Positions 22,976 through 41,880 of a stretch of 64,000 bases of DNA are shown here, piece after piece; the first letter of the stretch is position 1, and every line of letters begins with the position of its first letter. Position numbers and translations under genes: made by a program. The stretch lies in NCBI RefSeq assembly GCF_900220985.1, contig NZ_OCPC01000002.1, forward strand, positions 62,001 through 126,000. Reading direction: 5' to 3'. Source of the stretch: Parahoeflea halophila. GTDB taxonomy: Bacteria; Pseudomonadota; Alphaproteobacteria; Rhizobiales; Rhizobiaceae. Below the pieces are notes generated by a model. The model saw only the letters and a program-made list of their open reading frames with translations. It had not been told where the DNA came from and made no database searches.

Positions 22976-24025
22976 ATGAAGAAACGAAATTTCCTGAAAT
23001 CCGCTGCCGTTGCAGCCCTCGCCCTGTCTGCAATGGGCGCATCTTCAATAGGTGCTGCCGCGCAGGAAGTGACACTGCGCATGCATCAGTTCCTGCCCCC
23101 GCAGGCCAATGTGCCTGCCGGCATTCTGATTCCCTGGGCTGAAAAGATCGGCACGGAATCGGGGGGCCGCATCAAGGTCGAAGTCTTCTCGGCAATGTCG
23201 CTTGGCGGCACTCCACCGCAGCTGATGGACCAGGCCCGTGATGGTGTGGTCGACATCGTCTGGACCCTGCCGGGCTATACGCCGGGCCGTTTCCCCAGCG
23301 TCGAAGTGTTTGAACTTCCCTTCACCATGACCAATGCGGAGGCCACCTCCCGCGCCTATTGGGAACTGTTCAAGTCCGACATGGAAGAAACCGAGTTCAA
23401 GGGCGTCAAGATTCTCGGCACCTGGGTTCACGGCCCCGGCGTCATCCACTCCAAGGGCGAAGGTGTCCGCAAGCTCGAAGACATGCAGGGCAAGAAGGTG
23501 CGCGGTCCGACCCGCGTCATCAACGGCTTGCTGGCCGAACTCGGCGCCGAGCCTGTGGGCATGCCCGTTCCCGCGATCCCGGAAGCGCTCTCCAAGGGCG
23601 TGATCGACGGCACCGTTATCCCGTGGGAAGTCACTCCCGCGCTCAAGGTTGCTGAACTCGTCGACACCCACACCGAGTTCTCCGGCGACACCGCGCTCTA
23701 CACCGCGGCCTTCGTGCTTGCCATGAACCAGGCCAAATACGACAGCATGCCTGACGATCTCAAGAAGATCCTCGACGACAACACCGGCGCCGACTTCTCC
23801 GCCCATGCCGGCAAGACCATGGCAGGCTACGACGCCAGCGGCCGCGCCATCGCCGAGGCCACCGACAACGAGATTGTTGTTCTCGATGAAGCTGAAGTGG
23901 CGCGCTGGAAATCAGCTGCCGAGACCGTGCTCGACAACTGGTTCACGGAAATGGACGCCAAGGGCATCGACGGCAAGGCGCTGTATGAAAAGGCCCAGGC
24001 ACTGATCGCGAAACACTCCAACTGA
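22976..24025 (+). CDS. TRAP transporter substrate-binding protein (DctP family), system 1
   Basis: A 349-aa periplasmic solute receptor. The signal peptide is clear (KKRNFLKSAAVAALALSAMG, cleaved near GAAAQE). The DctP fold is indicated by VRGPTRVINGLLAELGAEPV, in which the conserved Arg usually binds a carboxylate. It starts the plus-strand operon dctP-dctQ-dctM, which is convergent with the sulfolactate genes. A carboxylate or sulfonated carboxylate ligand is likely; sulfolactate is a reasonable guess from context only. Confidence 0.92.
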   Translation: MKKRNFLKSAAVAALALSAMGASSIGAAAQEVTLRMHQFLPPQANVPAGILIPWAEKIGTESGGRIKVEVFSAMSLGGTPPQLMDQARDGVVDIVWTLPGYTPGRFPSVEVFELPFTMTNAEATSRAYWELFKSDMEETEFKGVKILGTWVHGPGVIHSKGEGVRKLEDMQGKKVRGPTRVINGLLAELGAEPVGMPVPAIPEALSKGVIDGTVIPWEVTPALKVAELVDTHTEFSGDTALYTAAFVLAMNQAKYDSMPDDLKKILDDNTGADFSAHAGKTMAGYDASGRAIAEATDNEIVVLDEAEVARWKSAAETVLDNWFTEMDAKGIDGKALYEKAQALIAKHSN

Positions 24026-24043
24026 CGCGGCCGGTATGAAAAC

Positions 24044-24078
24044 CCCGGCGGGCCAGGCTGCAGGCCGTGCCCGCCGGG
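24044..24078 (+). terminator. Intercistronic hairpin between dctP1 and dctQ1
   Basis: A perfect 10-bp inverted repeat (CCCGGCGGGC / GCCCGCCGGG) with a 15-nt loop lies 18 bp after the dctP stop. No T-run follows. Such hairpins in TRAP operons can act as attenuators or 3' stabilisers that keep binding-protein mRNA above that of the membrane subunits. Confidence 0.6.
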
Positions 24079-24189
24079 AAACAATGGGTCAAGATGACAA
24101 CGGGTCGGCGGACCGGATCGGCAGGCTGAACAAGATGCCCAAAACGATCCGCAGCAAACCGCCTTCGTGGCCACACCCGGAGATATCAG

Positions 24190-24720
24190 ATGTTTGACCG
24201 GATTGACCGCTTGATGCGGTTGCTTGCAGCTTTACTGGCCATTGTTGGCGGGCTGGCACTGATTGTGGTTATCCTGTCAACCGTCGCCTCGGTCTCCGGC
24301 CGCGCCCTGCTCTGGGCAGGGCTTGGGCCGATCCGCGGTGACTTCGAGCTTGTCGAGCTTGGCACCGGCTTCGCTGTCTTTGCGTTTCTGCCCTGGGTTC
24401 AGATCAACCGCCAGCATGCAGCGGTGGAAATCCTGACCATGCACCTGGGCGCCACCGCCAATCGCGTGATCGATATGGTGTCCGACCTTCTGATGCTGAC
24501 CATCGCCGTACTTCTGACCTGGAAGCACTGGGAGGGCACACTCGACAAATTGGCCTACGGCGAAACCACTTTCATCATCCAGTATCCGATCTGGTGGGCC
24601 TATGCCTCCGGACTTGTGGGGGCAATCGGATTTGTGCTGGTCAGCGCCTGGTGCGTGATCCTGAGCGCACGGGCGTTGATGAGCGGCCGGAGCTGGCCGA
24701 ATGGAGAGACGGTACATTGA
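24190..24720 (+). CDS. TRAP transporter small permease (DctQ family), system 1
   Basis: A 176-aa inner-membrane protein with four hydrophobic helices, as expected for the TRAP small subunit (for example LLAALLAIVGGLALIVVIL near the N-terminus and the late VGAIGFVLVSAWCVILSA). It contains the family-typical FAFLPWVQINRQHAAVEI loop. It ends in TGA overlapping the TTG start of dctM, so the two are translationally coupled. Confidence 0.88.
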   Translation: MFDRIDRLMRLLAALLAIVGGLALIVVILSTVASVSGRALLWAGLGPIRGDFELVELGTGFAVFAFLPWVQINRQHAAVEILTMHLGATANRVIDMVSDLLMLTIAVLLTWKHWEGTLDKLAYGETTFIIQYPIWWAYASGLVGAIGFVLVSAWCVILSARALMSGRSWPNGETVH

Positions 24721-26039
24721 GCAATATCGACATCGCACTTCTCTCCTTTCCCGTCCTTCTGCTGATGATTTTCCTGCGGGTACCGATCGGACTGGCGATG
24801 CTGCTCGCCGGCATCGGCGGCAGCTATTTCATCAACGGCTCGTTCCTGATGATCTTCGCTCAGCTCAAGAACCTGACCTGGGGCACATTTTCCAGCTATT
24901 CGCTTTCCATCATCCCGCTGTTTCTGCTGATGGGGCAATTCGCCACCCTCGGCGGCATGTCCCAGGCCCTGTTCAAGGCGGCCGAAACCTGGATGGGCCA
25001 CAAGAAGGGCGGCGTGGCCATGGCCGCCGTCGGCGCCTGTGCGGGCTTTGGCGCGATTTGCGGCTCGTCGCTGGCGACCGCAGCCACAATGGGCCAAGTC
25101 GCCCTGCCCGAACTCAAGCGCTATGGCTATTCCGGCGAGCTCGCCACCGGTGCGCTGGCGGCCGGCGGCACCCTGGGCATTCTGATCCCGCCCTCGGTGA
25201 TCCTGGTCATCTATGCCATCCTGACCGAACAGAACATTGCCAAGCTCTTCGTCGCCGCCTTCATTCCGGGCATCCTGGCGGCGATCGGCTACATGATCGC
25301 CATTGCGATCTATGTCAGGTTCAAGCCCGGCTCTGCCGGTCAGCGTGAGCGCGCGCCCTATTCCGAGCGCTTCCGCAGCCTGATCCACGTCTGGCCGGTG
25401 CTTTTGGTTTTCATTGCCGTTGTCGGCGGCATTTACGGCGGCATCTTCACCCCGACCGAGGCTGCCGCAATCGGCGCCTTCGGCACCGGGCTGATCGCGC
25501 TCGTCAATGGTGGCCTGAACAGAACGACGCTGAAATCCTCGATACTGGCCACCGCCAGCGCCACCGGCATGATCTTTCTCATCGTTTTCGGCGCCGGCGT
25601 CTACAACGCCTTTCTGGCGCTGAGCCAGCTGCCGCAGACCGCCGCCGCCTATGTCGGCAACCAGGGCTTCAACCCGTGGCTGGTCATGGTGGTTGTGCTG
25701 ATGCTTTACCTGGTTTTCGGCTGCATCATGGACTCGCTGTCGATGATCCTGCTCACCGTGCCGATCTTCTTCCCGATCATGTCGGCGCTCGATTTCGGCC
25801 TGACGCCGGAGGAATTCGCCCTCTGGTTCGGCATCATCGTGCTGATCGTGGTCGAGGTCGGGCTGATAACGCCCCCGGTGGGGATGAACCTGTTTGTCAT
25901 CAACTCGATGGCCGACAACACCCCGCTCTCGGCAACCTACCGCGGCGTGTTCCCCTTCGTCGTCACCGACATTGTCCGCGTCGCCATCCTGACCATGTTC
26001 CCGGCCATCACCCTCGTCGCCGTCAGATTGCTCTACTGA
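24717..26039 (+). CDS. TRAP transporter large permease (DctM family), system 1
   Basis: A 440-aa, roughly 12-helix permease that carries the sodium-coupled transport step. DctM hallmarks are FLRVPIGLAMLLAGIGG, SSLATAATMGQVALPEL and GILIPPSVILVIYAILTEQ. I set the start at TTG 24717, preceded by GGAGAG and overlapping the dctQ stop. An open frame running back to 24594 lies inside dctQ and is not expected to be translated. The gene ends 47 bp from the convergent comC. Confidence 0.92.
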   Translation: MSNIDIALLSFPVLLLMIFLRVPIGLAMLLAGIGGSYFINGSFLMIFAQLKNLTWGTFSSYSLSIIPLFLLMGQFATLGGMSQALFKAAETWMGHKKGGVAMAAVGACAGFGAICGSSLATAATMGQVALPELKRYGYSGELATGALAAGGTLGILIPPSVILVIYAILTEQNIAKLFVAAFIPGILAAIGYMIAIAIYVRFKPGSAGQRERAPYSERFRSLIHVWPVLLVFIAVVGGIYGGIFTPTEAAAIGAFGTGLIALVNGGLNRTTLKSSILATASATGMIFLIVFGAGVYNAFLALSQLPQTAAAYVGNQGFNPWLVMVVVLMLYLVFGCIMDSLSMILLTVPIFFPIMSALDFGLTPEEFALWFGIIVLIVVEVGLITPPVGMNLFVINSMADNTPLSATYRGVFPFVVTDIVRVAILTMFPAITLVAVRLLY

Positions 26040-26085: not shown

Positions 26086-27090
26086 TCAACCGCCGATCGC
26101 GCGGATGGAAGCTTCCAGCTCCGCATCCACCGGAATGCCGTGCTCGAGATAATCGGCGCGGATCTGCTGCCGCCGCCGTCCGGGCACACGTGCGCCGTCT
26201 GTACCGGCAACCATATCGGCCATAAGCGCCATGCGCGCCTCGCCGCCGGCTCCGAACGCGTCCGGGTCAATCGCGATGATTGCCTGGCCGGTACCCGGCG
26301 GATCACCCTTGTCGTCAAAGAACGATGTCGCCTGCCAGGCATAGTTCGCCCCGGTCAGCCCGGCGCAGAGAAGCTCCACCATCAGGGCCAGGGCCGTTCC
26401 CTTGGCGTCCCCGAGCGGGATCATCGTGCCGGCCATCGCCGCCTTGGCATCCGTCGTCGGCTGACCATCTGGATCCAGCGCCCATCCTTCAGGGATCGGA
26501 TCGCCTCTCTGCGAGGCCGCCATGATCTTGCCGCGCGCAACCTTCGACAGAGAAATGTCCACCACCACTGGTGCTCCATTGGAAACCGGAGCAGCAAAGG
26601 CAATCGGATCTGTCCCAAACAACGCTCGGTTCCCACCCCAAGGCGCCATTGCCGCCGGTGCATTGGCCACCATCAGCGCGGCGACACCACGTTCGGCCAA
26701 CGCCTCGACTATCACCCCGGCAACCCCGCAATGATGCGAGCGGCGAATGCCGGCAATGGCAATGCCCTGCGCCCTTGCTGCCCCAGGCAGCCAGTCGAGC
26801 GCCAGATCCATCGCCGGATAGGCAAAGCCGTTGCCCGCGTCGATTGCCAGTGCGCCGGGCCGTGTCTGTTCGGATGATGGCTCCGCAAAACCATCCACCT
26901 TTCCGGCCTGCGCCTGGGCCGCGTAGGCCGCCACACGCCGCAAGCCATGGCCGTTCTGCCCGGCCAGCTCGGCCGCAAGCAATGCCCGCGCCACTGAGGC
27001 GGCATTGGCGTCCGATGTCCGGTTCCGGGTCAGCGCCCCCATTATCAGATCGGTGACCGCCTCCGGTGTCATTGTCAGCATGCCGCTCAC
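26086..27090 (-). CDS. comC: (R)-sulfolactate dehydrogenase ComC-like (malate/L-lactate dehydrogenase family)
   Basis: A 334-aa NAD(P)-dependent oxidoreductase of the Ldh_2 (malate/ureidoglycolate/sulfolactate dehydrogenase) family. Typical sequence includes the N-terminal NGHGLRRVAAYA, the catalytic-His region RRSHHCGVAG and the cofactor-domain VVDISLSKVARGK. In sulfolactate metabolism ComC interconverts (R)-sulfolactate and sulfopyruvate; with SlcC it isomerises sulfolactate so that SuyAB can use it. It overlaps slcC by 4 bp and is last in suyA-suyB-slcC-comC. The family assignment is secure; the sulfolactate specificity is inferred from the operon. Confidence 0.82.
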   Translation of the reverse strand: MSGMLTMTPEAVTDLIMGALTRNRTSDANAASVARALLAAELAGQNGHGLRRVAAYAAQAQAGKVDGFAEPSSEQTRPGALAIDAGNGFAYPAMDLALDWLPGAARAQGIAIAGIRRSHHCGVAGVIVEALAERGVAALMVANAPAAMAPWGGNRALFGTDPIAFAAPVSNGAPVVVDISLSKVARGKIMAASQRGDPIPEGWALDPDGQPTTDAKAAMAGTMIPLGDAKGTALALMVELLCAGLTGANYAWQATSFFDDKGDPPGTGQAIIAIDPDAFGAGGEARMALMADMVAGTDGARVPGRRRQQIRADYLEHGIPVDAELEASIRAIGG

Positions 27091-28019
27091 GCCTTGCTCC
27101 CCAGCACTTCAAGCACCTTGTCGGCGATCAGATGGCTGACCCGCTCGTTCGATTCATCCGTTACCCCGGCGATATGCGGTGTCAGCACAAGATTGCTCAG
27201 CCCCTTGAATTTCGCGCCCGCCTCCGCCGTCAGCGGCTCGGTCTCGAACACGTCAAGAGCGGCGCCGGCCAGCTTGCCGGCCTTCAGCGTCTCAGCCAAC
27301 GCCGCCTCATCGACGATGCCGCCACGTGCCGCATTGATCAGCACCGCCCCCGGCTTCATGCTCGAAAGCGCTCTGGCATCAATCATGTTGCGCGTCGCAT
27401 CGGTCAGCGGCGTATGCAGCGAAACCACGTCGGAGAGTTCGAGCACCGCATCCAGTGATACATTGCGGGCGATCTGCCAGCCGGGATGGTCGGCCATCAG
27501 GTAAGGATCACAGGCGACGATCTGCATGCCCATCATGTGTGCCCGCCACGCCACCTCGCGGGCAATCGAGCCATAGCCGACCAGCCCGATGGTCTTGCCG
27601 GCAAGTTCGCGGCCCATCATTGATTGCCGCGGCCAGTCACCCGCAGCCACCTCGGCCGAGCGCAGAAACGCGCCACGCAACAACATCAGTGCCGACGTGA
27701 TGACGTATTCGGCCACCGACAGATCATTGGCCCCGGTCGCCGGGATCACCTTGACCGAGCGCGCCTTGCAGGCCGCCACATCGATATTGTCGAGCCCGAC
27801 ACCCAGCCGCCCGACCACACGCAGTTTCGGGCCCATGCCGAGAAGCGTCTCGTCCACCTGGGTGCGGTTGCGCACGATCAACGCCCGCGCCGACGCCAGA
27901 TGCTCGTGCAAAGCCGCAGGGTCATCGACGAGCTTCGGATCATAGACCGTGTCATGGGCCTGGACGAGGCGGCCGACTGCCGCCTCGTCCATGAATTCGG
28001 TAATGACGATGTCTGCCAT
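27087..28019 (-). CDS. slcC: (S)-sulfolactate dehydrogenase SlcC-like (D-2-hydroxyacid dehydrogenase family)
   Basis: A 310-aa NAD-dependent dehydrogenase of the phosphoglycerate-dehydrogenase family. It has the Rossmann motif GLVGYGSIAREV, the active-site Arg in LINAARGGIVDE, the Glu in VFETEPL and the His in LTPHIAGVT. In characterised sulfolactate clusters SlcC oxidises (S)-sulfolactate to sulfopyruvate, which ComC reduces to the (R)-form. Its location between suyB and comC, with a 4-bp overlap with comC, is the reason for the assignment. Generic phosphoglycerate dehydrogenase activity is unlikely because the ACT/ASB domains are absent. Confidence 0.82.
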   Translation of the reverse strand: MADIVITEFMDEAAVGRLVQAHDTVYDPKLVDDPAALHEHLASARALIVRNRTQVDETLLGMGPKLRVVGRLGVGLDNIDVAACKARSVKVIPATGANDLSVAEYVITSALMLLRGAFLRSAEVAAGDWPRQSMMGRELAGKTIGLVGYGSIAREVAWRAHMMGMQIVACDPYLMADHPGWQIARNVSLDAVLELSDVVSLHTPLTDATRNMIDARALSSMKPGAVLINAARGGIVDEAALAETLKAGKLAGAALDVFETEPLTAEAGAKFKGLSNLVLTPHIAGVTDESNERVSHLIADKVLEVLGSKA

Positions 28020-28044
28020 GATGAACCTTTATTGTTTCGCCGGG

Positions 28045-29226
28045 TTAAGCGGAACGATAGAGCTTTGTCATGGAGAATTCGCGATGCCCGAGGGCTTCTG
28101 CTGCCGTGGCGCGGCCATTCGATGTGCGCACAATCATCTCGATCAGCGCATCGCCCGCCTCGTCGATGGTCATGTCGCGCCTGAGGATGCCCGAGACATC
28201 GACATCGACATGCTCGCCCATGGTCCGAACCGTGCGCGGATTGGCCGTGATCTTGATCACCGGCACGATCGGGTTGCCAATCACATTGCCCTGACCGGTC
28301 GGGAAAGTGTGCACCACGTAACCGCCAGCGGCCATCAGCGTCACGCATTCCGCTGCCGCCGAAGACGAATCCATGAAATACAGGCCCTTGCCCGATTGCG
28401 GCGCTTCGGCCGGCTCGAGAATGTCGATGTATTTCGAGCTCCGGCCGATCTTCTCGAGATTGCCCAGCGCCTTCTCCTCGATCGTGGTCAGCCCGCCCTC
28501 GATATTGCCCTTGGTCGGCTGGCTGTCTGATAGATCGTCCGTCTGGTGCGCGAAGATGACGTCGTCCTGATAGGCCTTCCACATCTTGTACCAGCGCTCA
28601 CCGACTTCCTCATTGATCGCGCGGGCCTTGCAGATATGCTCGGCGCCGGTGATCTCGGAGGTCTCGCCAAAGCAGCCGTAAATGCCTTCCGGCAACAGCT
28701 TGTCGTACATGTTGCCAACTGTCGGGCAGGAGCCGAGACCGGTCGTGGTGTCGCTCTCGCCGCACTTGGTCGAGACCCACAGTTCCGAGATCGAGCACTC
28801 TTCCCGCTGCAGCTCGGAAGCGAAATGCACATATTCCTTGGCCACCCGTGACGCATCCATGATGGTCTTGAGATCGCCATTCTGCTCGATTGAGAGGCCC
28901 GTCACCGGCTTGCCGGTGGCAGCGATCCCGTCCACGATCTTCTTGGTCCAGCCCGGCTCGATACCGATCACCACGACAGCCGCCACGTTCGGATTCGACC
29001 CGGTGCCGATCATGGTGCGGAAGTGCAGATCCAGGTCTTCGCCGAACTGCAACCTGCCATAGGCATGCGGCAGGGCCAGCGTCCCCTTGATATTGTTCGC
29101 CACCGCTTCGCAAGCCGCATTGGAGATATCGTCCACCGGCAGGATGACGACATGATTGCGGACGCCGACACGGCCATTCTCACGCCGGTAGCCTTGAAAC
29201 GTCATGTTGGAATATTTCGATGCCAT
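28045..29226 (-). CDS. suyB: (R)-sulfolactate sulfo-lyase subunit beta SuyB
   Basis: A 393-aa UxaA-family lyase. From memory, long stretches match SuyB closely, such as [37 protein letters not shown] and [13 protein letters not shown]. SuyAB cleaves (R)-3-sulfolactate to pyruvate and sulfite, releasing the C3-bound sulfonate. Altronate and galactarate dehydratases share the family but are normally fused to or paired with uronate genes, none of which is here. It follows suyA by 11 bp. An iron site is expected in the family. Confidence 0.86.
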
Positions 29227-29237
29227 GATCAGGGCTC

Positions 29238-29525
29238 CTACCAGCGCTTGGTTTTGAGGTTGTGTGTATGGACGTGGGCGCCCTTCTCCACATCGGCGAC
29301 AAACTTGCCAATGTCCTCACCGTATTTGATCGCGGTGTCGCCGGACTTGATGTCTTTCAGCGCGATCTTGTGGCCAATCGGTACATCTGCCTTTGACGCC
29401 AACTCAAAGCTCGAATTGTCATGCGTGACGACACAGAGCATCGTGGTTCCAGCCGTCAGGCCCTCGACAACGACGACGCCGACATTGTCTGCGTGATCAT
29501 GGACTAGCAAATGAGGTGCGGTCAC
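29238..29525 (-). CDS. suyA: (R)-sulfolactate sulfo-lyase subunit alpha SuyA (SAF domain)
   Basis: A 95-aa SAF-domain protein, the small subunit of SuyAB. It has the typical [16 protein letters not shown] and the C-terminal YVHTHN-like signature here as [12 protein letters not shown]. Separate small and large subunits match sulfolactate sulfo-lyase. It is the first gene of the minus-strand operon. Its promoter region, shared with the divergent GntR gene, carries the 14-bp regulon palindrome 52 bp before its start. Confidence 0.86.
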
Positions 29526-29555
29526 GTTTGTCCTCCAATGTGGATAAGGTGTATT

Positions 29556-29568: not shown

Positions 29569-29576
29569 CTATTTGA

Positions 29577-29590
29577 GTCTTATATAAGAC
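29577..29590. promoter_or_regulatory. Regulon operator copy 1 (GTCTTATATAAGAC)
   Basis: A perfect 14-bp palindrome between suyA (minus) and the GntR regulator (plus), 41 bp before the gntR start. Identical copies occur at 35542, 38793 and 40803, always upstream of genes for sugar or sulfonate use. Its AT-rich centre could overlap a -10 region. The probable ligand-responsive binder is the adjacent GntR/UTRA protein, which would also regulate itself. Confidence 0.85.
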
Positions 29591-29630: not shown

Positions 29631-30392
29631 ATGGAAAACAAGAAACGGCTGCCGGAAGGCACTGAAACCGCAGCTGGCGATGCGATCGGCTTCAAACCGC
29701 TCTATGCCCAGGTCCGCGAAAGGCTGATGCGGCGTCTCGTTGAAGGTGAATGGGTGCCGGGCATGCTGCTGCCAAGCGAGATGGTTCTGGCGCGCCAGCT
29801 CAATGTCAGCCAGGGCACGGTTCGCAAGGCCCTGGACTCAATGACGGCGGACAATTTGCTCTTGCGCCGACAGGGCCGCGGCACCTATGTGGCCGAGCCC
29901 GAGGAAAGCCGCATTCTGTTCCAGTTTTTCAGGCTCTCACCGGATGAAGGCAGCCCCAGCTTTCCCGATTCCAGGGTCCTGAGCACCAGCGCCGCCGCCC
30001 CGACGAACACGGAAAAACAGCAGCTCGGTCTCGATGACACCGATGAGGTCATCCGCATCGAGCGCATCCGCTCGCTGGCCGGAGAACCGATCCTGATCGA
30101 AACCCTCACGCTGCCGTCAAACCGGTTTCCCGATTTCGATCATCTGACGATCATCCCGAACAATGTCTACAGGCTCTATTCCGAGCGCTGGGGCATCACC
30201 ATCGGCAGCGCCGAGGAACGGCTCAAGGCGATTGCCGCCAGTGCCCGCGATGCCGCCAAGCTGGGATGCGACCCGGGAGAGCCGCTGCTGCTGATCAGCC
30301 GTGTCGCCCGCGATCTGGAAAACCGCCCGGTCGAACTTCGCTGGTCGCGCTGCATCAGCCGCAACATCCATTATTCAGTCAATCTTCGGTGA
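29631..30392 (+). CDS. GntR family regulator with UTRA domain (HutC subfamily)
   Basis: A 253-aa transcription factor. An N-terminal winged helix-turn-helix (residues 24-90, PLYAQVRERL...LPSEMVLARQLNVSQGTVRKA, quoted in parts) is followed by a UTRA effector domain (about 105-250; IRIERIRSLAGEPI, LLLISRVARD). HutC-type members usually repress and are released by a pathway intermediate. It is divergent from suyAB-slcC-comC and its stop is 3 bp from the convergent Gfo/Idh gene. The four identical palindromes nearby are the likely operators. A sugar phosphate or sulfonate intermediate is the probable effector. Confidence 0.9.
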   Translation: MENKKRLPEGTETAAGDAIGFKPLYAQVRERLMRRLVEGEWVPGMLLPSEMVLARQLNVSQGTVRKALDSMTADNLLLRRQGRGTYVAEPEESRILFQFFRLSPDEGSPSFPDSRVLSTSAAAPTNTEKQQLGLDDTDEVIRIERIRSLAGEPILIETLTLPSNRFPDFDHLTIIPNNVYRLYSERWGITIGSAEERLKAIAASARDAAKLGCDPGEPLLLISRVARDLENRPVELRWSRCISRNIHYSVNLR

Positions 30393-34580: not shown

Positions 34581-35476
34581 GGCTGGGCCTCTTTCATGAA
34601 TGTTTCGGTTTCTGCACGTGTCGGATAACCGTCACGGCCATTGGTCCGGGTGCACTTGATGGCGGCGACAGCACTGGCAAAGCGGATCGCCTCGGGCGGT
34701 GATGCCCCTTCCCCTAGCAGCAGGGCGAAGGCGCCGTGCCAGACATCGCCCGCCCCCAGCGTATCAAGCGGCGTGATCGCAAAGGCAGGCTCGAAGCCCG
34801 ACGCTGAGCCATGCCGCCAATTCACGCCGTTTCCGCCATCGGTAACGCACACAAACGCGCCGGTTTCCGCCGCAACATCGTTGAGCGCTGTGTCGAGATC
34901 CTCGTGCTCAGCCCAGTCGCGCAGCCCTTGCGCCGAAAACGCGATATGGCTCGCCAGTTGCAGCGCGGTTTCCGCCTCGCGTATCGGTGCTTCGCCATCC
35001 AGTACGCCGGGTACCCCACGCTCGCGTGCTGCCCGCATCAGGACCTCGGCCCCATCCGGCCACCGAGTGTCCGCCAGCGCCGCGTTGAAATCCTCCGGCA
35101 ACGCGGCCAGTAGCCAGTCTGCATCCATCGGCAGTTCGGGATCACGGAAATTGACGATCTGGCGTTCTCCTGCCTGATCGATAAACACCGAGGAAAACGA
35201 GGACCGCCGCCCCTCGAACTGCTTCAGCATAAAGCAATCGACACCGTCGGCTTCAAGCCCGGCGGCAATCATCTCTGCCACCTGGTCCGAGCCGAGCCGG
35301 CTCGCCAGCATCGCATGACCGCCCAGCCGTGCAATTGCAGCCGCCGCATTGGCTGCGCCGCCGCCTCCGGTGATTTCAGCACCCTTCGCCCGGTATTTTT
35401 CAGCCAGCCTCGGCATCTCGTCGAGATGAAAAACGAAATCCATCACGGCGACCCCGGTGGTCACGATCTTTGTCAT
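34571..35476 (-). CDS. PfkB-family sugar kinase, YihV-like (probable sulfofructose kinase)
   Basis: A 301-aa ribokinase-fold kinase. The N-terminal GGGGAANAAAAIARLGG and the catalytic DTLGAGDVWHGAF (base Asp near 244) are intact. From memory it resembles the E. coli sulfofructose kinase YihV more than other PfkB proteins, for example LADTRWPDGAE, VLDGEAP and FASAVAAIKCTRTNGRDGYP. YihV phosphorylates 6-deoxy-6-sulfofructose at C1. It is the first gene of the kinase-aldolase unit, with regulon operator copy 2 located 66 bp before its start. Confidence 0.85.
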   Translation of the reverse strand: MTKIVTTGVAVMDFVFHLDEMPRLAEKYRAKGAEITGGGGAANAAAAIARLGGHAMLASRLGSDQVAEMIAAGLEADGVDCFMLKQFEGRRSSFSSVFIDQAGERQIVNFRDPELPMDADWLLAALPEDFNAALADTRWPDGAEVLMRAARERGVPGVLDGEAPIREAETALQLASHIAFSAQGLRDWAEHEDLDTALNDVAAETGAFVCVTDGGNGVNWRHGSASGFEPAFAITPLDTLGAGDVWHGAFALLLGEGASPPEAIRFASAVAAIKCTRTNGRDGYPTRAETETFMKEAQPCS

Positions 35477-35541
35477 TGCAAGCTAGTATCCCTGGCGCAT
35501 CGAGGTTGCGAAAAGCACCCTCCGCGGCACGACTCTATCAA

Positions 35542-35555
35542 GTCTTATATAAGAC
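35542..35555. promoter_or_regulatory. Regulon operator copy 2 (GTCTTATATAAGAC)
   Basis: The second perfect copy of the 14-bp palindrome, upstream of the YihV-like kinase gene and just downstream of the di-haem peroxidase stop codon. Placement in the kinase promoter suggests that GntR represses kinase, aldolase and possibly the distal isomerase and Gfo/Idh genes. Confidence 0.85.
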
Positions 35556-35604
35556 ACAAGAGCTAATCGCCCGCCGTAGACCGCTGAAAGGGATGAACTT
35601 GATC

Positions 35605-36990
35605 TCAATCCACCGGAAGACCACTCGGCACTGCGGCCGGCCGCCCAAGCCGGCCTTTGGCTTCACCCGTCAAGGCCTCGAGAAAAGCGATGAGATCCGA
35701 GACTTCGCGATCGGAAAGCGTCACCGGCTCGATATCGACCCTCGCCCGCAGCCGCTCCCGTTCCCGTTTGTCGTCGAAGGAGATGAAATCCACGCGGGCG
35801 AAGCGCTCGTCGGGCGGCAGTTTTACCAATTCCGGCGTCCAGCCGTCCAGCGCTGTCACCGGATCGAGGTGATGCCGGACAATACCTTCGAGCGTGGCAT
35901 AGGCCCCGTTATGGCCCCATGGCCCGGTCAACGCCACATTGCGCAGCATCGGCGTGCGGAAACTGTAGGCGTCCTCCAGCCGGTCCGATTCCGCCATCCG
36001 CCCTACATCACGCACATAGGGATCAAACCGCCGGGTCCGGCCCGGACCGAAATGCGGCAGCGCCAGCGCATGGAACTCCTGGTCCGACATCAGCTTGCCC
36101 GCGTGGCAGCTTGCGCATTGCGCCTTGCCGTAAAACAGCTCCATCCCGGCCAGCGCCGCAGGATCAAGCGCTGCGTTATCGCCTGCAAGATAGCGGTCGA
36201 ACGCGCTGTCCATGCTGCGCCACTCGGAATTGACGAAATCTCCCAGCGCATTGGCAATATGGGTAATGGTGAGATCTCCCGGCCCGCGGAGGTCGGGATC
36301 CGCCTCGCGGAACTGCTCGACATAGGTGTCAATACCACGCACCCGCTCGACCAGCAGCGGCCAGACATAGTCGATCCGGTCATAGGCCGCCCCCGCGACC
36401 TTGTTTTCCTCCGGGTTGCCGGCCATCTCGGTTTCCGACGTCAGCGGGAACAGCGCCTGCGCCGCCAGTATCCCCTTGAGGCCTTCCGGCAGGTATTCCT
36501 CCGCCGGAGAGTTGAACCCGTTGCCGAAGATGTCGTCGATGCTCAGCCGGCCGTCGTGAAACAGCACCCGGATCTCGCGGGCGCCGAGATTGAACAGCGC
36601 CGATGCGTTGCGCGGCACCCGCTTTTCGATCCGGTCCGCGCCCTCACCGGTCGTCCGCTTGAGCCCCAGGCCCATGCCGCCTTCTCCCACACCCAGCGGC
36701 AGGCCGTCACCTGAGGCGAGATCGTGGTGATGACAGGTGCCGCAGGAGATATTGCGATTGCCCGACAGCACTGGATCGTAAAACAGCAACTGGCCGATCT
36801 TCGCGAGTCGCGGATCGTAGTCATGAAAATCCGCCTCGCGCAGCGGTTCGGGGAATGGGGTGACACTGTCAGCTTTGGCCGGCGCAACGAGCCCAGCCAA
36901 GCCGAACAGGATAGCCGCAAGCAGGGTGCGGCCAGCGGCAAGGTGGCGCAGCACATCACTTCGCCAGTCAGGCAGTTCCTCTCCGCTCAT
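35605..36990 (-). CDS. Di-haem cytochrome c peroxidase / MauG-like protein
   Basis: A 461-aa periplasmic protein with a signal peptide (LLAAILFGLAGLVAPAKA). It has two c-type haem motifs, CGTCHH in the N-terminal half and CASCHA in the C-terminal half, in the di-haem CCP/MauG arrangement; LFNLGAREIRVLFHDGRLS is typical. I chose ATG 36990 because a GGGAGGAACGGGAG ribosome-binding region precedes it, 18 codons inside the longest frame. It sits between operator copy 2 and the Sel1 gene. A role in peroxide removal or in oxidising a periplasmic partner is possible; a sulfite link is speculation. Confidence 0.87.
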   Translation of the reverse strand: MSGEELPDWRSDVLRHLAAGRTLLAAILFGLAGLVAPAKADSVTPFPEPLREADFHDYDPRLAKIGQLLFYDPVLSGNRNISCGTCHHHDLASGDGLPLGVGEGGMGLGLKRTTGEGADRIEKRVPRNASALFNLGAREIRVLFHDGRLSIDDIFGNGFNSPAEEYLPEGLKGILAAQALFPLTSETEMAGNPEENKVAGAAYDRIDYVWPLLVERVRGIDTYVEQFREADPDLRGPGDLTITHIANALGDFVNSEWRSMDSAFDRYLAGDNAALDPAALAGMELFYGKAQCASCHAGKLMSDQEFHALALPHFGPGRTRRFDPYVRDVGRMAESDRLEDAYSFRTPMLRNVALTGPWGHNGAYATLEGIVRHHLDPVTALDGWTPELVKLPPDERFARVDFISFDDKRERERLRARVDIEPVTLSDREVSDLIAFLEALTGEAKGRLGRPAAVPSGLPVD

Positions 36991-37108
36991 CTCCCGTTCC
37001 TCCCAAAACCGGTGACGCACCGCCAACACCCGTTGCCACATCATCTTGCCACCCCGGACACGAGGCCCCTATTGTCGGCATCACGAATGAATATCGAGAG
37101 AATGGCAA

Positions 37109-37606
37109 ATGAACCTTCCGCTTGCAAATGCCAAAACCCGCCTCATGGCCCTGGGCCTCGCGCTGGCCATCGCCGCTCCTGCACAGGCCGAAATCGAGAA
37201 GGGCCGCGTGCTGATGGAAAGCCACAAATTCGAGGAAGCCATGGCCGAGTTCCTGCCGGCCGCCCGCTCCGGCAATGCCGACGCTGAGGAACTGATCGGC
37301 GTCATGTACGCCATGGGCCTTGGCGTCGAACGCGATGATGAACGCGCCTTCGAATGGTATCTGCGCGCCTCGATGAAAGGCCATCCCGGTGCGCAATCGG
37401 GTGTCGGCTGGTATTTTGAAGTCGGCCGCGGCACCGCGGTCGATCTGGTACGCGCCTATCTCTGGTACGGCCTTTCCGCCATCGGCGGCGATCCGGATGC
37501 AGCCATTTCGATCGAGGAAGTCGCAAAGAAAATGACGGCAGAGCAGATCCGCCGCGCCGAAGTGCTGATCAACGATTACCGTCCCTGGATGTACCCGTTC
37601 CGCTAA
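37109..37606 (+). CDS. Sel1-repeat secreted protein
   Basis: A 165-aa protein with a signal peptide (RLMALGLALAIAAPAQA) and about two to three Sel1-like TPR repeats, for example GNADAEELIGVMYAMGLGVE and HPGAQSGVGWYFEVGRGTAV. Such repeats form helical scaffolds for protein binding in the periplasm. It is divergent from the di-haem peroxidase and is followed by a strong bidirectional terminator. Its specific function is unknown. Confidence 0.83.
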   Translation: MNLPLANAKTRLMALGLALAIAAPAQAEIEKGRVLMESHKFEEAMAEFLPAARSGNADAEELIGVMYAMGLGVERDDERAFEWYLRASMKGHPGAQSGVGWYFEVGRGTAVDLVRAYLWYGLSAIGGDPDAAISIEEVAKKMTAEQIRRAEVLINDYRPWMYPFR

Positions 37607-37625
37607 ACCGGTCATCAACGAAAAA

Positions 37626-37647
37626 CCGCCCGGTGTGAACCGGGCGG
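37626..37647. terminator. Bidirectional terminator between the Sel1 gene and dctP2
   Basis: A perfect 8-bp stem, CCGCCCGG-TGTGAA-CCGGGCGG, lies between convergent genes. An A-run precedes it (AAAAA at 37621-37625), giving a T-run on the minus strand for dctP2, and a short CCTTGT follows on the plus strand for the Sel1 gene. Confidence 0.8.
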
Positions 37648-37677
37648 CCTTGTCATCGCGGCTATGGCACCACGGCC

Positions 37678-38757
37678 TTATTGCATGTCCTTCATCGCGC
37701 CGCTGTCGATCATTTCGGAGGCCTTTGCGGCTTCCGCGACCAGCAGGTCATAGAAGGTTGCGCCGCCCTGGACATTGGACTTGAACCATTCGAACACTGG
37801 CGCTGCGGCTTCCTTGAACTGGGCTTTTTCTTCCATTGTCGGCACATAGACCGAACCACCGTCCTCGGCGAAGGCCTTGTAGGCCTCGATCGACTTGCGC
37901 TTCGGCGAGGCGAATGTTGCCTGCTGCAGCGCCGCAAAACCATCGACCACCACCCGGCGCAGGTTCTCGTCCATGCTCATGAAGCGGTCATTGTTCATGT
38001 ACCACAGCGCGCCCATGTAGGAGTGTCCGTCGAGCGTCAGGTATTTCAAGCCGGCATCAGGGAACTTCATGCCCATGATGTCGGTGATACCGTTCTGGGT
38101 GCCTTCAACCACGCCGGTCTGGAACGAGGTGAACAGTTCCGGCCACGGAATCGGGGTCGGCGAAGCGCCCATCGAGCGCACCAGTTCCTGTGGCAGATCG
38201 GCCACCACGGTGCGGATCTTCAGCCCCTCCATGTCGGCCGGCGAGCGGATTTCCCGCTTGGTGTTGGCAAAATTGCGCCAGCCACCGGTGTTGCCGATCG
38301 TCATCAGCCGGATCATGCCGCCCGAATCGGCCAGCATTTGCTCGCGCAGCGCCCGGGTAAAGGTGCCCTCGGTCAGCACGGCTTCGGCAATCCGGTCGTC
38401 GCGCAAGAGGTAAGGCAGATCCAGAACCTGCACGTAAGGGAAGATCCCCGAAGCGCCGCCGGATGTGGAAATGTAGATGTCGATCGAGCCGTCAGCGATG
38501 CCCTGCAGGCATTCAGCCCCGGTCGAACAGAGCTGCGTTCCGATAAACAGCTCCACCTCGATGGCGCCGTTCGAAGCCTTTTCGACATAATCCTTGAACA
38601 CGATCAGACCATCATAGTCCTCGTCGTTCTCATTCGAGTTCGCCGTCGCCCGCAGCTTGATGTCGGCAGCCTGGGCGGCCGATATCATGCCCCCCGACAG
38701 AACCGCCAGCCCCAGTGCAGCCGCCGTCAGTGTTTTCATTGCCCTGTTCAAGATCAT
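37678..38757 (-). CDS. TRAP transporter substrate-binding protein (DctP family), system 2
   Basis: A 359-aa periplasmic receptor with a signal peptide (LTAAALGLAVLSGGMISAAQA). DctP-fold sequence includes SPADMEGLKIRTVVADLPQE and PWPELFTSFQTGVVEGTQNG. The start at 38757 is supported by a GGGAGGG ribosome-binding site. It is the last gene of a dctQ2-dctM2-dctP2 set and has its own operator copy (38793), so binding protein can be made separately from the permease. In context the ligand may be sulfoquinovose, a sulfoquinovosyl glycoside or sulfolactate. Confidence 0.9.
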   Translation of the reverse strand: MILNRAMKTLTAAALGLAVLSGGMISAAQAADIKLRATANSNENDEDYDGLIVFKDYVEKASNGAIEVELFIGTQLCSTGAECLQGIADGSIDIYISTSGGASGIFPYVQVLDLPYLLRDDRIAEAVLTEGTFTRALREQMLADSGGMIRLMTIGNTGGWRNFANTKREIRSPADMEGLKIRTVVADLPQELVRSMGASPTPIPWPELFTSFQTGVVEGTQNGITDIMGMKFPDAGLKYLTLDGHSYMGALWYMNNDRFMSMDENLRRVVVDGFAALQQATFASPKRKSIEAYKAFAEDGGSVYVPTMEEKAQFKEAAAPVFEWFKSNVQGGATFYDLLVAEAAKASEMIDSGAMKDMQ

Positions 38758-38792
38758 CGATAACCCTCCCGTTGAGATCTATTTTCCTTCTT

Positions 38793-38806
38793 GTCTTATA
38801 TAAGAC
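38793..38806. promoter_or_regulatory. Regulon operator copy 3 (GTCTTATATAAGAC)
   Basis: A perfect 14-bp palindrome in the dctM2-dctP2 gap, 36 bp before the dctP2 start. The flank ATAAGAT that follows on the plus strand is shared with copy 1, giving an extended match. It indicates an internal, separately regulated promoter for the binding protein. Confidence 0.85.
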
Positions 38807-38878
38807 ATAAGATTGATGACGCATCCGGACTTGTCAACCACAACACTTGTCCGGCCTTCGATGTCGCCCGCATGACAG

Positions 38879-40168
38879 TCACCGGGCAAAACCGAACAAT
38901 TGCGGCATGAACAGCGAAATCTGCGGGATGAAGGTGATCAGGAAGATCACGATGACTTCGACCAGCAGAAACGGCAGTATTGCCTTGGCAATGGTTTCCA
39001 CCCGTTCGCCCGACACACTTGAAGTGACAAACAGCACCAGCCCCATCGGCGGCGTCGCCAGCCCCACCGTCAAGTTGACGCTCATGATGATGGCGAAATG
39101 CACCGGATGAACCCCGAGATCGGTAAAGATCGGCCCCAGGATCGGCCCCAGGATGATGATCGCCGGCCCCGCGTCGAGAAACATCCCGACGATGAACAGG
39201 AGCACATTGATCAGGAATAGCAGGATATAGGGATTGTCCGACAGGCCGAGAATGAAATTGGCCAGGATCTCCGGCGTGTGCGACAGGCTGACCACGGTCT
39301 TGAATGCCATCGCCGCCCCCACCAGGAGCAGCACCACCGAAGTCGTCATTGCAGCCTTGGTCAAAACCCTCGGCAGGTCTGCCCATGCCATGGTCTTGAG
39401 GATGAACATCGCCACGATCAGGGCATAGACCGCGGCCACCGCGGAGGCCTCCGTCGGCGTGAACACCCCGCCCAGGATGCCGCCCAGAATGATGACCGGC
39501 GTCAGCAGAGGGAAGAAGGCTTTCAGGCTCGCCTGCCCGCGCTCAGGCCAGCTCGCCTTGCGCGCGGCAACGGGAAAGCCGTGCCGCCGGGCAAGCAAGG
39601 CTACCACGCTCATCAATCCGACGCCGACGAGAATGCCCGGAACGATGCCGGCTAGGAACAGCGCCGCCACCGATTCGCCCATCACATAGGCATAGATGAT
39701 CATGATCCCCGACGGCGGGATGATCGGCCCGATCACCGAAGAGGCCGCGGTCACAGCCGCCGCGAACTTGCGGCTATAGCCGTTCTTTTCCATCGCCGGA
39801 ATCAGCATTGAGCCCAATGCAGAAACATCCGCGACAGCCGACCCGGACAGACCGGCAAACAGCATCGATGACAGGATGTTGACATGCGCCAGCCCGCCCT
39901 TGAGATGCCCGATCATTGCCTGGCTGAACTCGACGATCCGCATGGTGATGCCGCCACGGTTCATCAGCTCGCCGGCTAGCATAAAAAACGGAATCGCCAT
40001 CAGCGGGAACGAATCCATGCCCGTGTAGACATTGCGATAGAGCAGCGCCAGGTCGCGCTCCTGGCCATTGAGCCAGAGCAGGAAGCCAGGGGCTGCCAAC
40101 ATGCCGAAGAACACCGGCAGGCCGATCATCAGGAAGATCAGGAACAGGGGAAGGAAGAAGAACAGCAT
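38879..40168 (-). CDS. TRAP transporter large permease (DctM family), system 2
   Basis: A 429-aa DctM permease with about 12 hydrophobic helices. Family signatures are PLMAIPFFMLAGELMNRGG, GLSGSAVADVSALGSMLIPAM and IIPPSGIMIIYAYVMGES. It is encoded 3 bp after dctQ2 and is therefore coupled to it. It pairs with dctQ2 and dctP2. Confidence 0.92.
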   Translation of the reverse strand: MLFFFLPLFLIFLMIGLPVFFGMLAAPGFLLWLNGQERDLALLYRNVYTGMDSFPLMAIPFFMLAGELMNRGGITMRIVEFSQAMIGHLKGGLAHVNILSSMLFAGLSGSAVADVSALGSMLIPAMEKNGYSRKFAAAVTAASSVIGPIIPPSGIMIIYAYVMGESVAALFLAGIVPGILVGVGLMSVVALLARRHGFPVAARKASWPERGQASLKAFFPLLTPVIILGGILGGVFTPTEASAVAAVYALIVAMFILKTMAWADLPRVLTKAAMTTSVVLLLVGAAMAFKTVVSLSHTPEILANFILGLSDNPYILLFLINVLLFIVGMFLDAGPAIIILGPILGPIFTDLGVHPVHFAIIMSVNLTVGLATPPMGLVLFVTSSVSGERVETIAKAILPFLLVEVIVIFLITFIPQISLFMPQLFGFAR

Positions 40169-40171
40169 GAC

Positions 40172-40759
40172 CTATTCCACCGCCACGATAACGCGGTCAC
40201 GGTCATCGGGCAGGTGGGCCTCCGGGTCGATGACATGGGCACAGGCCTTCAGACACAGCTCGACATTGACCAGGCACATCAGCAGCAGACCGACCGGCAA
40301 CGACATGTACATCCAGGCGAGCTTGATCCGCACCAGCCCCAGCCCGAGAAACTCCAGCGGCAGCTTCAGGGAGCTCGAATTGAACAGCCAGCCCGATTTG
40401 ACGTGATTGAGTCCGAGCTGAAAACCGTAAACCAGCACGCTCAGCGAAACCGCAAGCAGGATAAGCCCCAGGAAAGAGCCGATCCGCGCCGGCAGCAGGT
40501 CTTTGACCATCTCGATCGAGACGAACCCGCCCCAGCGATAGGCGGAGGGTGCGATCAAGGCCGTCATCCACAGCATCAGGAAGCGCGCACCCTCATCTGG
40601 CCATGCCAGGGCACTGCCAACGATGTAGCGAAAGAACACCTGCAGGATGATGATCAGGACCATCAGACCCATGGCCACCCAGGCAAAGGTCCGGCCCAGG
40701 CGCAAGAGCAGCGTGTTGAAAGCCGCCAGCGGCTTGAGCAACGCCAGTATAACCGTCAT
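40172..40759 (-). CDS. TRAP transporter small permease (DctQ family), system 2
   Basis: A 195-aa membrane protein with four predicted helices (WVAMGLMVLIIILQVFFRYI; FLGLILLAVSLSVLVYGF; a late WMYMSLPVGLLLMCLV). DctQ family sequence YIVGSALAWPDEGARFLM is present. It is the first gene of TRAP system 2, with operator copy 4 located 44 bp upstream of its start. Confidence 0.88.
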   Translation of the reverse strand: MTVILALLKPLAAFNTLLLRLGRTFAWVAMGLMVLIIILQVFFRYIVGSALAWPDEGARFLMLWMTALIAPSAYRWGGFVSIEMVKDLLPARIGSFLGLILLAVSLSVLVYGFQLGLNHVKSGWLFNSSSLKLPLEFLGLGLVRIKLAWMYMSLPVGLLLMCLVNVELCLKACAHVIDPEAHLPDDRDRVIVAVE

Positions 40760-40802
40760 GGTCTTGGTCCTCCCCAGGCCCTACCCCGAAACTCGCTCCG
40801 CA

Positions 40803-40816
40803 GTCTTATATAAGAC
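40803..40816. promoter_or_regulatory. Regulon operator copy 4 (GTCTTATATAAGAC)
   Basis: The fourth perfect copy of the palindrome, between the aldose 1-epimerase stop (40870) and dctQ2. It controls the dctQ2-dctM2 promoter and completes the set of four identical sites within about 11.2 kb. Confidence 0.85.
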
Positions 40817-40869
40817 TTCTGACATGGGCTTCTATTTCACAGCCTCTGTCAAGTCTTTGCTGAAGCATT

Positions 40870-41880
40870 TCAGCTGCGGATGAACACATGTTCGGTGTGC
40901 TGAACCCGTTTTTCGCCCGGCCGCAGAACTGCGCCGGCAAAGCCCGCATGGTTAGGGCTGTCGGGCCAGCTCTGGGTTTCGAGACACAGCCCGGCGCAGG
41001 CGGAATAGGGTTTCCCGGTCAGGCCGGCAACCGGCGTCGCGATCTTGAAGCCGGTATAGAGCTGCAGACCCGGTTCGGTCGAGCGAAGCTCCATGGCGAG
41101 ACCCGAGCGCATCGACCGCAGCAGTGCAATCGTGCGGACCGCTTGGCGCTCATGCGACAGGCAGAAATTGTGGTCGTAAGCCACCTGCTGACCATCGGAA
41201 CCCTCGCGACGGATCGGGCGCAGCTCACGGAAATCGTGGTCCGTGCCTGCCACCGCACGGATCTCGCCCGTCGGAATAAGATCCTCGTCAACCGGCAGAT
41301 AATGATCGGCCGCCATCATAAGTTCGTGATCGAGGATATCGCCGGCATCATCGAGCGTGAAATAGCTGTGATGGGCGACATTGACGAGCGTCGGCCGGTC
41401 GGTGACGCTGGTATAGGTGATCGCCAGACAGCCGCCGGGACGCAACTCGTACCGCGCCTCGGTCTTCGCAGTGCCGGGATATCCCGACTGGCCGTCGGGA
41501 TCGACGATCGAGAACACGGCGAAATCGCTGCCGTGGCTTTCCAGTGTCCACAGCCGCTTGCCGATGCCGGCGCTGCCGCCATGCAGATGGGTCACGCCGC
41601 GCTCGTTGCACTCAAGCTGATAGGTTGTTGCATCCAGCACGAAACGACCCTTGGCAATCCGGTTGGCATGCCGGCCCGCGGTCTGGCCGAAATAGGGCGA
41701 ATGCGCGGGATAGCTGTCAAAATCCGGAAACCCGAGCGTCAGCGGCGCGCCGTGGCCTTCGAGCCGCAGATCCTGCAGCGTGGCGCCCCAGGTCATGATC
41801 TTCGCGCTCAACCCGCCGCCCGCGATCGTCACCCGGTGTACGGTCTGGCCGTCCGCCGTCTGGCCGAATGGTTCAATCAT
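40870..41880 (-). CDS. Aldose 1-epimerase (galactose mutarotase-like)
   Basis: A 336-aa galactose-mutarotase-fold enzyme. The substrate-binding His in NVAHHSYFTLDD, the early HLHGGSAGIGKRLW and the late Glu in CLETQSWPDSPNH correspond to GalM active-site regions. ATG 41880 is chosen for its GGGGAGA ribosome-binding site; the longer frame reaches into the VWA gene. It is encoded directly upstream of TRAP system 2. Sulfoglycolysis clusters often include a sulfoquinovose mutarotase of this family, so it may serve the same pathway. Confidence 0.88.
   Translation of the reverse strand: MIEPFGQTADGQTVHRVTIAGGGLSAKIMTWGATLQDLRLEGHGAPLTLGFPDFDSYPAHSPYFGQTAGRHANRIAKGRFVLDATTYQLECNERGVTHLHGGSAGIGKRLWTLESHGSDFAVFSIVDPDGQSGYPGTAKTEARYELRPGGCLAITYTSVTDRPTLVNVAHHSYFTLDDAGDILDHELMMAADHYLPVDEDLIPTGEIRAVAGTDHDFRELRPIRREGSDGQQVAYDHNFCLSHERQAVRTIALLRSMRSGLAMELRSTEPGLQLYTGFKIATPVAGLTGKPYSACAGLCLETQSWPDSPNHAGFAGAVLRPGEKRVQHTEHVFIRS

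Follow-up and report, generated by a model that had tools for sequence, protein, structure and literature searches.

The stretch of 64,000 nucleotides from the genome of Parahoeflea halophila that was analysed here (contig NZ_OCPC01000002.1, positions 62,001 to 126,000; hereafter the window) contains, at positions 26086-42069 and mostly on the minus strand, a cluster composed of comC, slcC, suyB, suyA, the divergent gntR, a GH188-like gene, the genes of an isomerase, an aldolase, a kinase, a MauG-like protein and a Sel1-repeat protein (plus strand), and finally dctP, dctM, dctQ and an epimerase gene. These genes can be divided into an upper half, which would act on a sulfosugar, and a lower half (comC, slcC and suyAB), which would act on sulfolactate. 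Quite probably, both halves belong to a single GntR-controlled regulon that takes glycosides of sulfoquinovose (SQ) to central carbon metabolism and sulfite within one cell. That both halves serve one pathway in P. halophila is best supported by an operator, GTCTTATATAAGAC, although it is not universal among relatives. This perfect 14-bp palindrome occurs in four exact copies in the window, against 0.01 expected for shuffled sequence with up to 2 mismatches allowed, and these are all the exact copies of the genome (4.19 Mb; about 0.003 expected from the base composition of the window). The shared operator proposed in a preliminary description of this DNA is thus borne out.

In the proposed pathway, whose substrates we infer, a tripartite ATP-independent periplasmic (TRAP) transporter, DctP2Q2M2, would import SQ or sulfoquinovosyl glycerol, the GH188 enzyme would free SQ, with the epimerase helping its mutarotation, and the SqvD-like isomerase would convert SQ into sulfofructose. 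The YihV-like kinase would then form sulfofructose 1-phosphate, which the LacD-type aldolase would cleave into dihydroxyacetone phosphate and (S)-sulfolactaldehyde (SLA). An aldehyde dehydrogenase encoded outside the cluster, for which a GabD-type enzyme on contig C11 is the best candidate, would oxidise the latter to (S)-sulfolactate, SlcC and ComC would turn this via sulfopyruvate into (R)-sulfolactate, and SuyAB would release pyruvate and sulfite. The GntR protein would bind GTCTTATATAAGAC at the four sites and thereby switch both halves together.

The genes of the window were scanned against the Pfam and NCBIfam families, and every kind of gene named in the preliminary description was found. 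In addition, the scans gave genes that it does not name, for a MauG-like di-haem protein, a Sel1-repeat protein and a histidine-phosphatase-like protein. Gene content, placement in families, conserved residues, operator copies and co-occurrence, as given below, were computed. Two overlapping sets of relatives served for comparison, namely 397 genomes of the same order (labels G, with the own genome as G000) and the best 80 of 361 confirmed relatives from a contig scan, called named loci, which are mainly Rhizobiaceae and Rhodobacteraceae plus three gammaproteobacterial metagenome-assembled genomes. Labels L stand for single loci of either source. Some named loci belong to genomes of the first set, e.g., that of Maritalea porphyrae (L165, G093). 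Neighbouring genes in relatives were counted by tblastn with fixed identity thresholds, since the gene caller performed poorly in some of them.

Enzymes of the two halves

The Gfo/Idh protein was described beforehand as having the fold of NAD-dependent sulfoquinovosidases, and it can be placed more closely as GH188-like. Its matches in the PDB are 8qc2, 8qc3 and 8zn9 at 390-395 bits (394-395 for the first two), followed by the next match at 69 bits, and 8QC2 is the crystal structure of a GH188 enzyme (PMC11465081). In ArSqgA, SQ is contacted by the sulfonate triad R166, L170 and K172, together with Y136, E189, H193 and H321 (PMC10755693). When mapped by hand from the alignment, the window protein has R156, L160, K162, Y126, E179, H183 and H311 at the places of these ligand or catalytic residues. 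All seven positions are unchanged in every one of 83 full-length homologues with at least 45% identity (100 loci searched, a few genomes being counted twice). The Lys107 position, outside that count, is also matched in the pairwise alignment. A GH188-like protein with its sulfonate-binding residues kept is therefore supported by these comparisons.

For the isomerase, which shares 92% identity with its counterpart in Hoeflea sp. NORP7 and 83-85% with those of Hoeflea alexandrii, the sole NCBIfam match is the SQ isomerase SftI (NF048012, 262 bits, below the cut-off of 700). A sequence search of the PDB gave no match at E <= 0.001, and blastp against YihS none at E <= 1e-3. The predicted structure (mean predicted local distance difference test score, pLDDT, of 92) resembles arabinose and fucose isomerases, with a best Foldseek E of 1.3e-21 and a template modelling (TM) score of 0.57; the TM scores of the matches, normalised by the query, are 0.5-0.6 and their root-mean-square deviations large. 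The enzyme thus appears to be kin of SftI/SqvD instead of the YihS type, at the level of family kinship.

The kinase, whose reading frame overlaps that of the aldolase by 10 bases, is YihV-like, as had been noticed. Its best PDB match is the sulfofructose kinase YihV (7ag6, 203 bits, 37% identity to YihV; next two matches 151 and 81 bits), and, conversely, the best match of YihV among the PfkB kinases of the genome is the cluster kinase (181 bits vs 68 for the next). This placement relies on BLAST scores, as the kinase tree had long branches and unsettled forks and was not used. K27, N109 and R138, the sulfonate-binding residues of YihV, are all matched in the window kinase, but K27 and R138 also in another sugar kinase (2rbc). 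In one alignment of 18 kinases, K27 and R138 are found in all and N109 in 13.

The aldolase had been described as LacD/YihT-like, and of the two it is closer to LacD than to YihT (28% identity). Its PDB scores reach 137 bits with LacD structures and 69 with those of YihT, and closest of all is 8TNF (318 bits), entitled 'sulfohexulose-1-phosphate aldolase from Paracoccus onubensis strain Merri', eight chains of which Foldseek also places on top for the predicted structure (mean pLDDT 91). With 8TNF as the nearest match, the kinship to LacD, which by the preliminary description would count against a sulfosugar aldolase, does so formally but hardly in substance, and the enzyme may do the job of YihT.

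This kinship bears on the sugar that enters the pathway. With the lower half acting as proposed, the upper half might serve another sulfohexose, e.g., sulfofucose via sulfotagatose, or both epimers; 8TNF comes from a sulfofucose degrader and its title covers sulfohexulose 1-phosphates generally, while roles as sulfotagatose kinase and aldolase are discussed for the PF00294 and PF01791 proteins of strain Merri (PMC12421959). However, sulfofucose did not significantly raise the levels of kinase and aldolase in that strain, in which neither isomerase activity nor sulfotagatose could be detected (PMC12421959). Moreover, the GH188 protein has the SQ-binding residues of ArSqgA, including the glutamate at the C4 hydroxyl, and the only curated match of the isomerase is an SQ isomerase. 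We regard another sulfohexose as an unlikely substrate, and SQ as the preferred one.

In the lower half, SuyB was assigned by pairwise comparison without a tree. It is 80-81% identical to homologues on Paracoccus plasmids and 68% identical to that of Cupriavidus pinatubonensis HN-2, which lies near hpsN and hpsO, against 28-29% for the E. coli dehydratases UxaA and GarD, so that its description as a sulfo-lyase holds. SuyA is less telling, with 44% identity over 91 residues (87 bits) to the C. pinatubonensis protein and 46% over 83 residues (58 bits) to UxaA; it is absent from the PF08666 matches of the own genome and narrowly exceeds the family cut-off if scanned alone. The best NCBIfam match of ComC is L-sulfolactate dehydrogenase (NF040650, 182 bits, cut-off 500), and the top NCBIfam names of SlcC are phosphoglycerate dehydrogenases, below cut-off. 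Both genes adjoin suyAB in the window, an arrangement repeated in relatives, and they lie beside suyAB in most Paracoccus genomes (PMC9594981).

Two proteins could deal with the sulfite. Between suyB and slcC of some relatives lies a PF03601 membrane protein (conserved hypothetical 698; L066:16133-17188, L069:4256-5305), presumably YeiH-like and a candidate sulfite exporter. In the own genome, a single match to Mo-co_dimer, of the sulfite oxidase type (contig C2:481926-482276), marks a candidate for oxidising the sulfite released.

Operator and co-occurrence in relatives

The isomerase is found in 54 of the 397 genomes of the order at E <= 1e-20 and in 20, own genome included, at identities of at least 47%. 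SuyB has matches at E <= 1e-60 in 86 genomes; the identity is only 35-36% in two, which leaves 84, a few of these with fragments. SuyB is present in 18 of the 20 isomerase genomes vs 66 of the 377 others (Fisher p = 2e-11, a test that overstates independence as the genomes are related). In the two isomerase genomes without SuyB, suyA runs off a contig end (G081) or the assembly is 84% complete (G089). In 17 loci fetched from relatives (L054-L070), the isomerase is adjoined by the aldolase in all, by the kinase in 16 and by GH188 in 13. Among the 80 named loci, the kinase and the aldolase were each found in 74, GH188 in 71, DctP2 in 63, SlcC in 53, the MauG-like and Sel1 proteins in 52 each, epimerase homologues in 41, a linked aldehyde dehydrogenase in 32 and SuyB in 15. 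A search of 49 genomes whose fetched locus has the upper half without SuyB found SuyB elsewhere in 29.

In part of the relatives, the operator recurs before the same genes. At least one exact copy is present in 11 of the 20 isomerase genomes (own included) and the reversed control pattern in none. At up to 1 mismatch, 19 named loci carry 51 sites, 50 of which lie no more than 600 bp upstream of a matched stretch, namely 16 of the kinase, 13 of dctP2, 13 of gntR/suyA and 8 of dctQ2, and the control pattern gives 0 sites in the 80 loci. In three genomes in which the halves are unlinked, both have sites (G217 in L056 and L090, G145 in L062 and L101, G040 in L064 and L100), the upper genes being preceded by near-copies with 2 mismatches and suyA/gntR by exact copies. 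In the window as in relatives, gntR and suyA are divergently oriented and flank the operator, and the GntR protein, which we infer to be the partner of these sites, is their probable regulator.

A further observation concerns plasmid pZZM402 of Zymomonas mobilis ZM4 (L197:128-11361), on which a class II fructose-bisphosphate aldolase, an aldose epimerase, a TonB receptor and an annotated succinate-semialdehyde dehydrogenase are grouped with an SqvD-like isomerase and a Gfo/Idh protein, 38% and 48% identical to their window counterparts. By these resemblances, it is possibly a sulfo-EMP2-like SQ cluster of an ethanol producer.

Weighing the proposed single pathway

Several observations weigh against one pathway encoded by a regulon of this kind, beginning with the shortfalls of the isomerase and ComC from their family cut-offs, the aldolase lying nearer LacD than YihT, and the relatedness behind the Fisher test. 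In L062-L064, from three genomes of one genus, a GH31 protein stands in the place of GH188 (e.g., L062:7141-9258), and the fetched locus L065 has neither. As to the operator, 61 of the 80 named loci have no site at up to 1 mismatch, G145 has an exact copy (C1:992686) that belongs to neither half, and four genomes whose halves are unlinked (G166, G029, G283 and G205) show a site, at up to 2 mismatches, only at the lower half within the fetched stretches. Furthermore, 20 of the 49 genomes with the upper half apart from SuyB have no SuyB anywhere at E <= 1e-100, so that the upper half can exist alone. Lastly, no aldehyde dehydrogenase of PF00171 is found among the window proteins, with 17 matches elsewhere in the genome, and the candidate among these stands outside the clade of cluster-linked enzymes. 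The GH31 protein itself was considered as a sulfoquinovosidase of the YihQ type, which is unsupported: it scores 346 bits with YicI vs 145 with YihQ, and its alignment lacks the WNW stretch of YihQ.

Some of these observations would suit two separate pathways, one degrading a sulfosugar and excreting sulfolactate, and an independent one scavenging sulfolactate from outside, e.g., through the second TRAP system. In many relatives the two halves lie apart, each is also found on its own, the second TRAP system adjoins the lower half, and in the four genomes just named the site is confined to that half. However, in the window an identical operator stands at both halves, in G217, G145 and G040 both unlinked halves have a site or a near-copy with 2 mismatches, and the palindrome search of the window gave no copy at the second TRAP system. 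We regard two independent pathways in P. halophila as unlikely.

The cluster had been put forward as a candidate complete one, which overstates its content, as the scan for PF00171 leaves the step from SLA to sulfolactate without a cluster gene. In relatives, an aldehyde dehydrogenase of the GabD/SlaB type stands beside SuyAB (L104, L105 and L106), beside both halves (L069, L109, L143, L152 and L165) or, in others, beside the upper half. In a quick tree of 38 rows built from tblastn pieces, with 7 distant own rows left out, the cluster-linked enzymes form one clade of 23 rows (SH-aLRT, a likelihood-based branch support, 98), which also takes in unlinked enzymes of G230 and G040. Of the own enzymes, the unlinked GabD-type one on contig C11 comes nearest (59% identical), and it groups outside that clade with enzymes of G041 and G217. 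Since GabD of Rhizobium leguminosarum is reported as an SLA dehydrogenase (PMC10599462), the C11 enzyme is by its family a fair candidate, and the best one in the own genome. The same oxidation is also without an assigned gene in Paracoccus wurundjeri (PMC12421959).

A molybdenum aldehyde oxidoreductase of three subunits (18603-22669) is very unlikely to supply this step, even though its subunits best match those of glyceraldehyde dehydrogenase. It adjoins the cluster here, as it does in the Hoeflea loci L110-L112, and two relatives have a distant homologue (27%) a few kb from theirs (L074 of G378, L109 of G354). However, close homologues (68-81% identity, at least 600 residues) exist in 13 of the 19 further genomes with the isomerase, and the surroundings fetched for their isomerase or SuyB genes gave none at this identity. 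It thus seems to be of general occurrence in the order, and it has no operator copy.

A second locus of the own genome (L073, contig C5, 33000-52999) encodes an isomerase distantly like SftI (102 bits), a GntR regulator, a LacD-like aldolase, an ABC transporter, a DhaK-like kinase and an aldehyde dehydrogenase whose nearest kin are enzymes of the phenylacetaldehyde and betaine-aldehyde types. Judged by these families, it probably serves some other sugar, which fits better than a second sulfosugar cluster with an SLA dehydrogenase.

Transport genes and known systems

The features of the cluster and the adjoining transporter are collected in Table 1. The second TRAP system (DctP1/DctM1) is found near the isomerase in 6 of the 80 named loci, all of Hoeflea. 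The histidine-phosphatase-like region is matched in 9 of the 80, only the Hoeflea loci L110-L118, and this reading frame probably stands outside the sulfosugar pathway.

Table 1. Features of the sulfosugar and sulfolactate gene cluster and its flank (window positions).
Feature	Position	Strand	Basis or remark
Second TRAP system DctP1/DctQ1/DctM1, predicted	22976..26039 (starts: DctP 22976, DctQ 24190, DctM 24594)	+	Pfam/NCBIfam; no operator copy
ComC-type (R)-sulfolactate dehydrogenase	26086..27090	-	Pfam Ldh_2, 312 bits
SlcC-type (S)-sulfolactate dehydrogenase (2-hydroxyacid dehydrogenase family)	27087..28019	-	Pfam 2-Hacid_dh_C
SuyB, sulfolactate sulfo-lyase large subunit	28045..29226	-	pairwise identity
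SuyA, small subunit, SAF domain, GTG start	29238..29525	-	SAF 22.2 bits, cut-off 21
Operator GTCTTATATAAGAC between suyA and gntR	29577..29590	.	palindrome search
GntR/UTRA regulator	29631..30392	+	Pfam, NCBIfam; divergent from suyA
GH188-like NAD-dependent sulfoquinovosidase, SqgA type (Gfo/Idh)	30396..31481	-	PDB 8qc2/8qc3
SqvD/SftI-like SQ isomerase (L-fucose-isomerase-like)	31509..32903	-	NF048012, model fold
Histidine-phosphatase-like reading frame between isomerase and aldolase	32944..33531	+	family match
DeoC/LacD class-I aldolase, probable sulfofructose-1-phosphate (sulfohexulose-1-phosphate) aldolase	33546..34580	-	8TNF match
YihV-like sulfofructose kinase, PfkB	34571..35476	-	PDB 7ag6
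Operator upstream of kinase	35542..35555	.	palindrome search
MauG-like di-haem c-type protein	35605..37044	-	CCP_MauG, 104 bits
Sel1-repeat protein	37109..37606	+	Pfam Sel1
TRAP substrate-binding protein DctP2, candidate for sulfoquinovoside uptake	37678..38757	-	families; operator upstream
Operator upstream of dctP2	38793..38806	.	palindrome search
TRAP large permease DctM2	38879..40168	-	Pfam, NCBIfam
TRAP small permease DctQ2	40172..40759	-	Pfam
Operator upstream of dctQ2	40803..40816	.	palindrome search
Aldose 1-epimerase, candidate sulfosugar mutarotase	40870..41880 (reading frame to 42069, in-frame ATG at 41880)	-	Pfam, NCBIfam

The MauG-like protein has two CxxCH motifs and matches TIGR03981 with 258 bits, below the cut-off of 340. 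It occurs together with the Sel1 protein in 50 of the 63 loci with TRAP genes vs 1 of the 17 without, and this one locus begins at a contig end. Conservation of the pair together with the TRAP genes extends over both Rhizobiaceae and Rhodobacteraceae (L110-L189), and in L158, L159 and L172 the block of MauG, Sel1, dctP, dctM and dctQ is turned round as a whole with respect to the kinase gene; the Hoeflea loci L111, L113-L116 and L118 have TRAP genes without the pair at the tblastn thresholds used. It is conceivable, if doubtful, that the two proteins, tied to the TRAP transporter and part of the single-cell regulon in Hoeflea and many alphaproteobacteria, oxidise or condition a substrate derived from sulfolipid, e.g., its acyl or glycerol part, in the periplasm before uptake, a step that would be previously undescribed. 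Di-haem enzymes acting on fatty acids (PMC4496055) offer a lead, not evidence, and the literature naming both SQ and MauG concerns other subjects, as judged by titles and the starts of abstracts.

When compared with known systems, the cluster is a hybrid of a sulfo-Embden-Meyerhof-Parnas (sulfo-EMP) pathway and a sulfolactate-lyase regulon, the general kind of which is already known. The sulfo-EMP pathway of E. coli consists of YihS, YihV, YihT and YihQ and is also found in Arthrobacter. The window shares with it a YihV-like kinase and the same proposed intermediates, but has an SqvD/SftI isomerase for YihS and a LacD-like aldolase, and SLA would be carried on to sulfite. A GH188 enzyme is likewise used by the Arthrobacter pathway (PMC10755693). 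Hybrid sulfo-EMP/sulfo-EMP2 clusters, including cases of SqvD replacing YihS, occur in Proteobacteria (PMC9594981, PMC10599462, PMC13372026, PMC12890257), although the end product described for them is 2,3-dihydroxypropane-1-sulfonate or sulfolactate.

Three systems join both halves. Firstly, the predicted GH188 'Y160' cluster of Actinobacteria bacterium IMCC26103 (PMC11465081) likewise unites GH188, a fucose isomerase, a sulfofructose kinase, a sulfofructose-phosphate aldolase and both SuyAB subunits; it also has a D-3-phosphoglycerate-dehydrogenase gene and an SLA dehydrogenase, the latter being absent from the window. It is, unlike the present cluster, actinobacterial, with an ATP-binding cassette (ABC) transporter and a tyrosine at the L170 position, and the part of that paper covered lists a transcriptional regulator but no operator or regulon such as that described here. 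Secondly, Paracoccus wurundjeri Merri possesses a tandem sulfofucolytic-sulfolactate sulfolyase pathway, with complete use of sulfofucose shown by experiment (PMC12421959). SuyAB, SlcC and ComC lie there beside sulfosugar genes, a PF00294 kinase and a PF01791 aldolase belong to the cluster, and the SLA dehydrogenase is missing from it, as in the window; in contrast, sulfofucose is degraded by an Entner-Doudoroff route, the transporter is of the ABC type, the cluster has no isomerase and the strain does not grow on SQ. Thirdly, the extended sulfo-transaldolase pathways of Thermotogae and Chloroflexi (PMC9594981) also combine SQ cleavage, an SqvD isomerase and SuyAB in one cluster, but use a transaldolase where the window has a kinase and an aldolase. 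Hence, the observation that both halves stand side by side in one organism holds for the window, but not as a first case. In the literature on Hoeflea and SQ, mostly open-access main texts, no description of this cluster was found, and that on SQ and TRAP transporters, of the same kind, gave only a taurine-respiring gut bacterium and not this cluster.

The amount of SQ is estimated at about 10 billion tons annually (PMC12890257, PMC10755693). Its degradation is commonly described as a relay between species, one of which excretes C3 sulfonates that another cleaves. If the proposed pathway is true, an alphaproteobacterial regulon joining both steps would shorten this relay to one cell and, moreover, would change which genomes count as sulfite producers.

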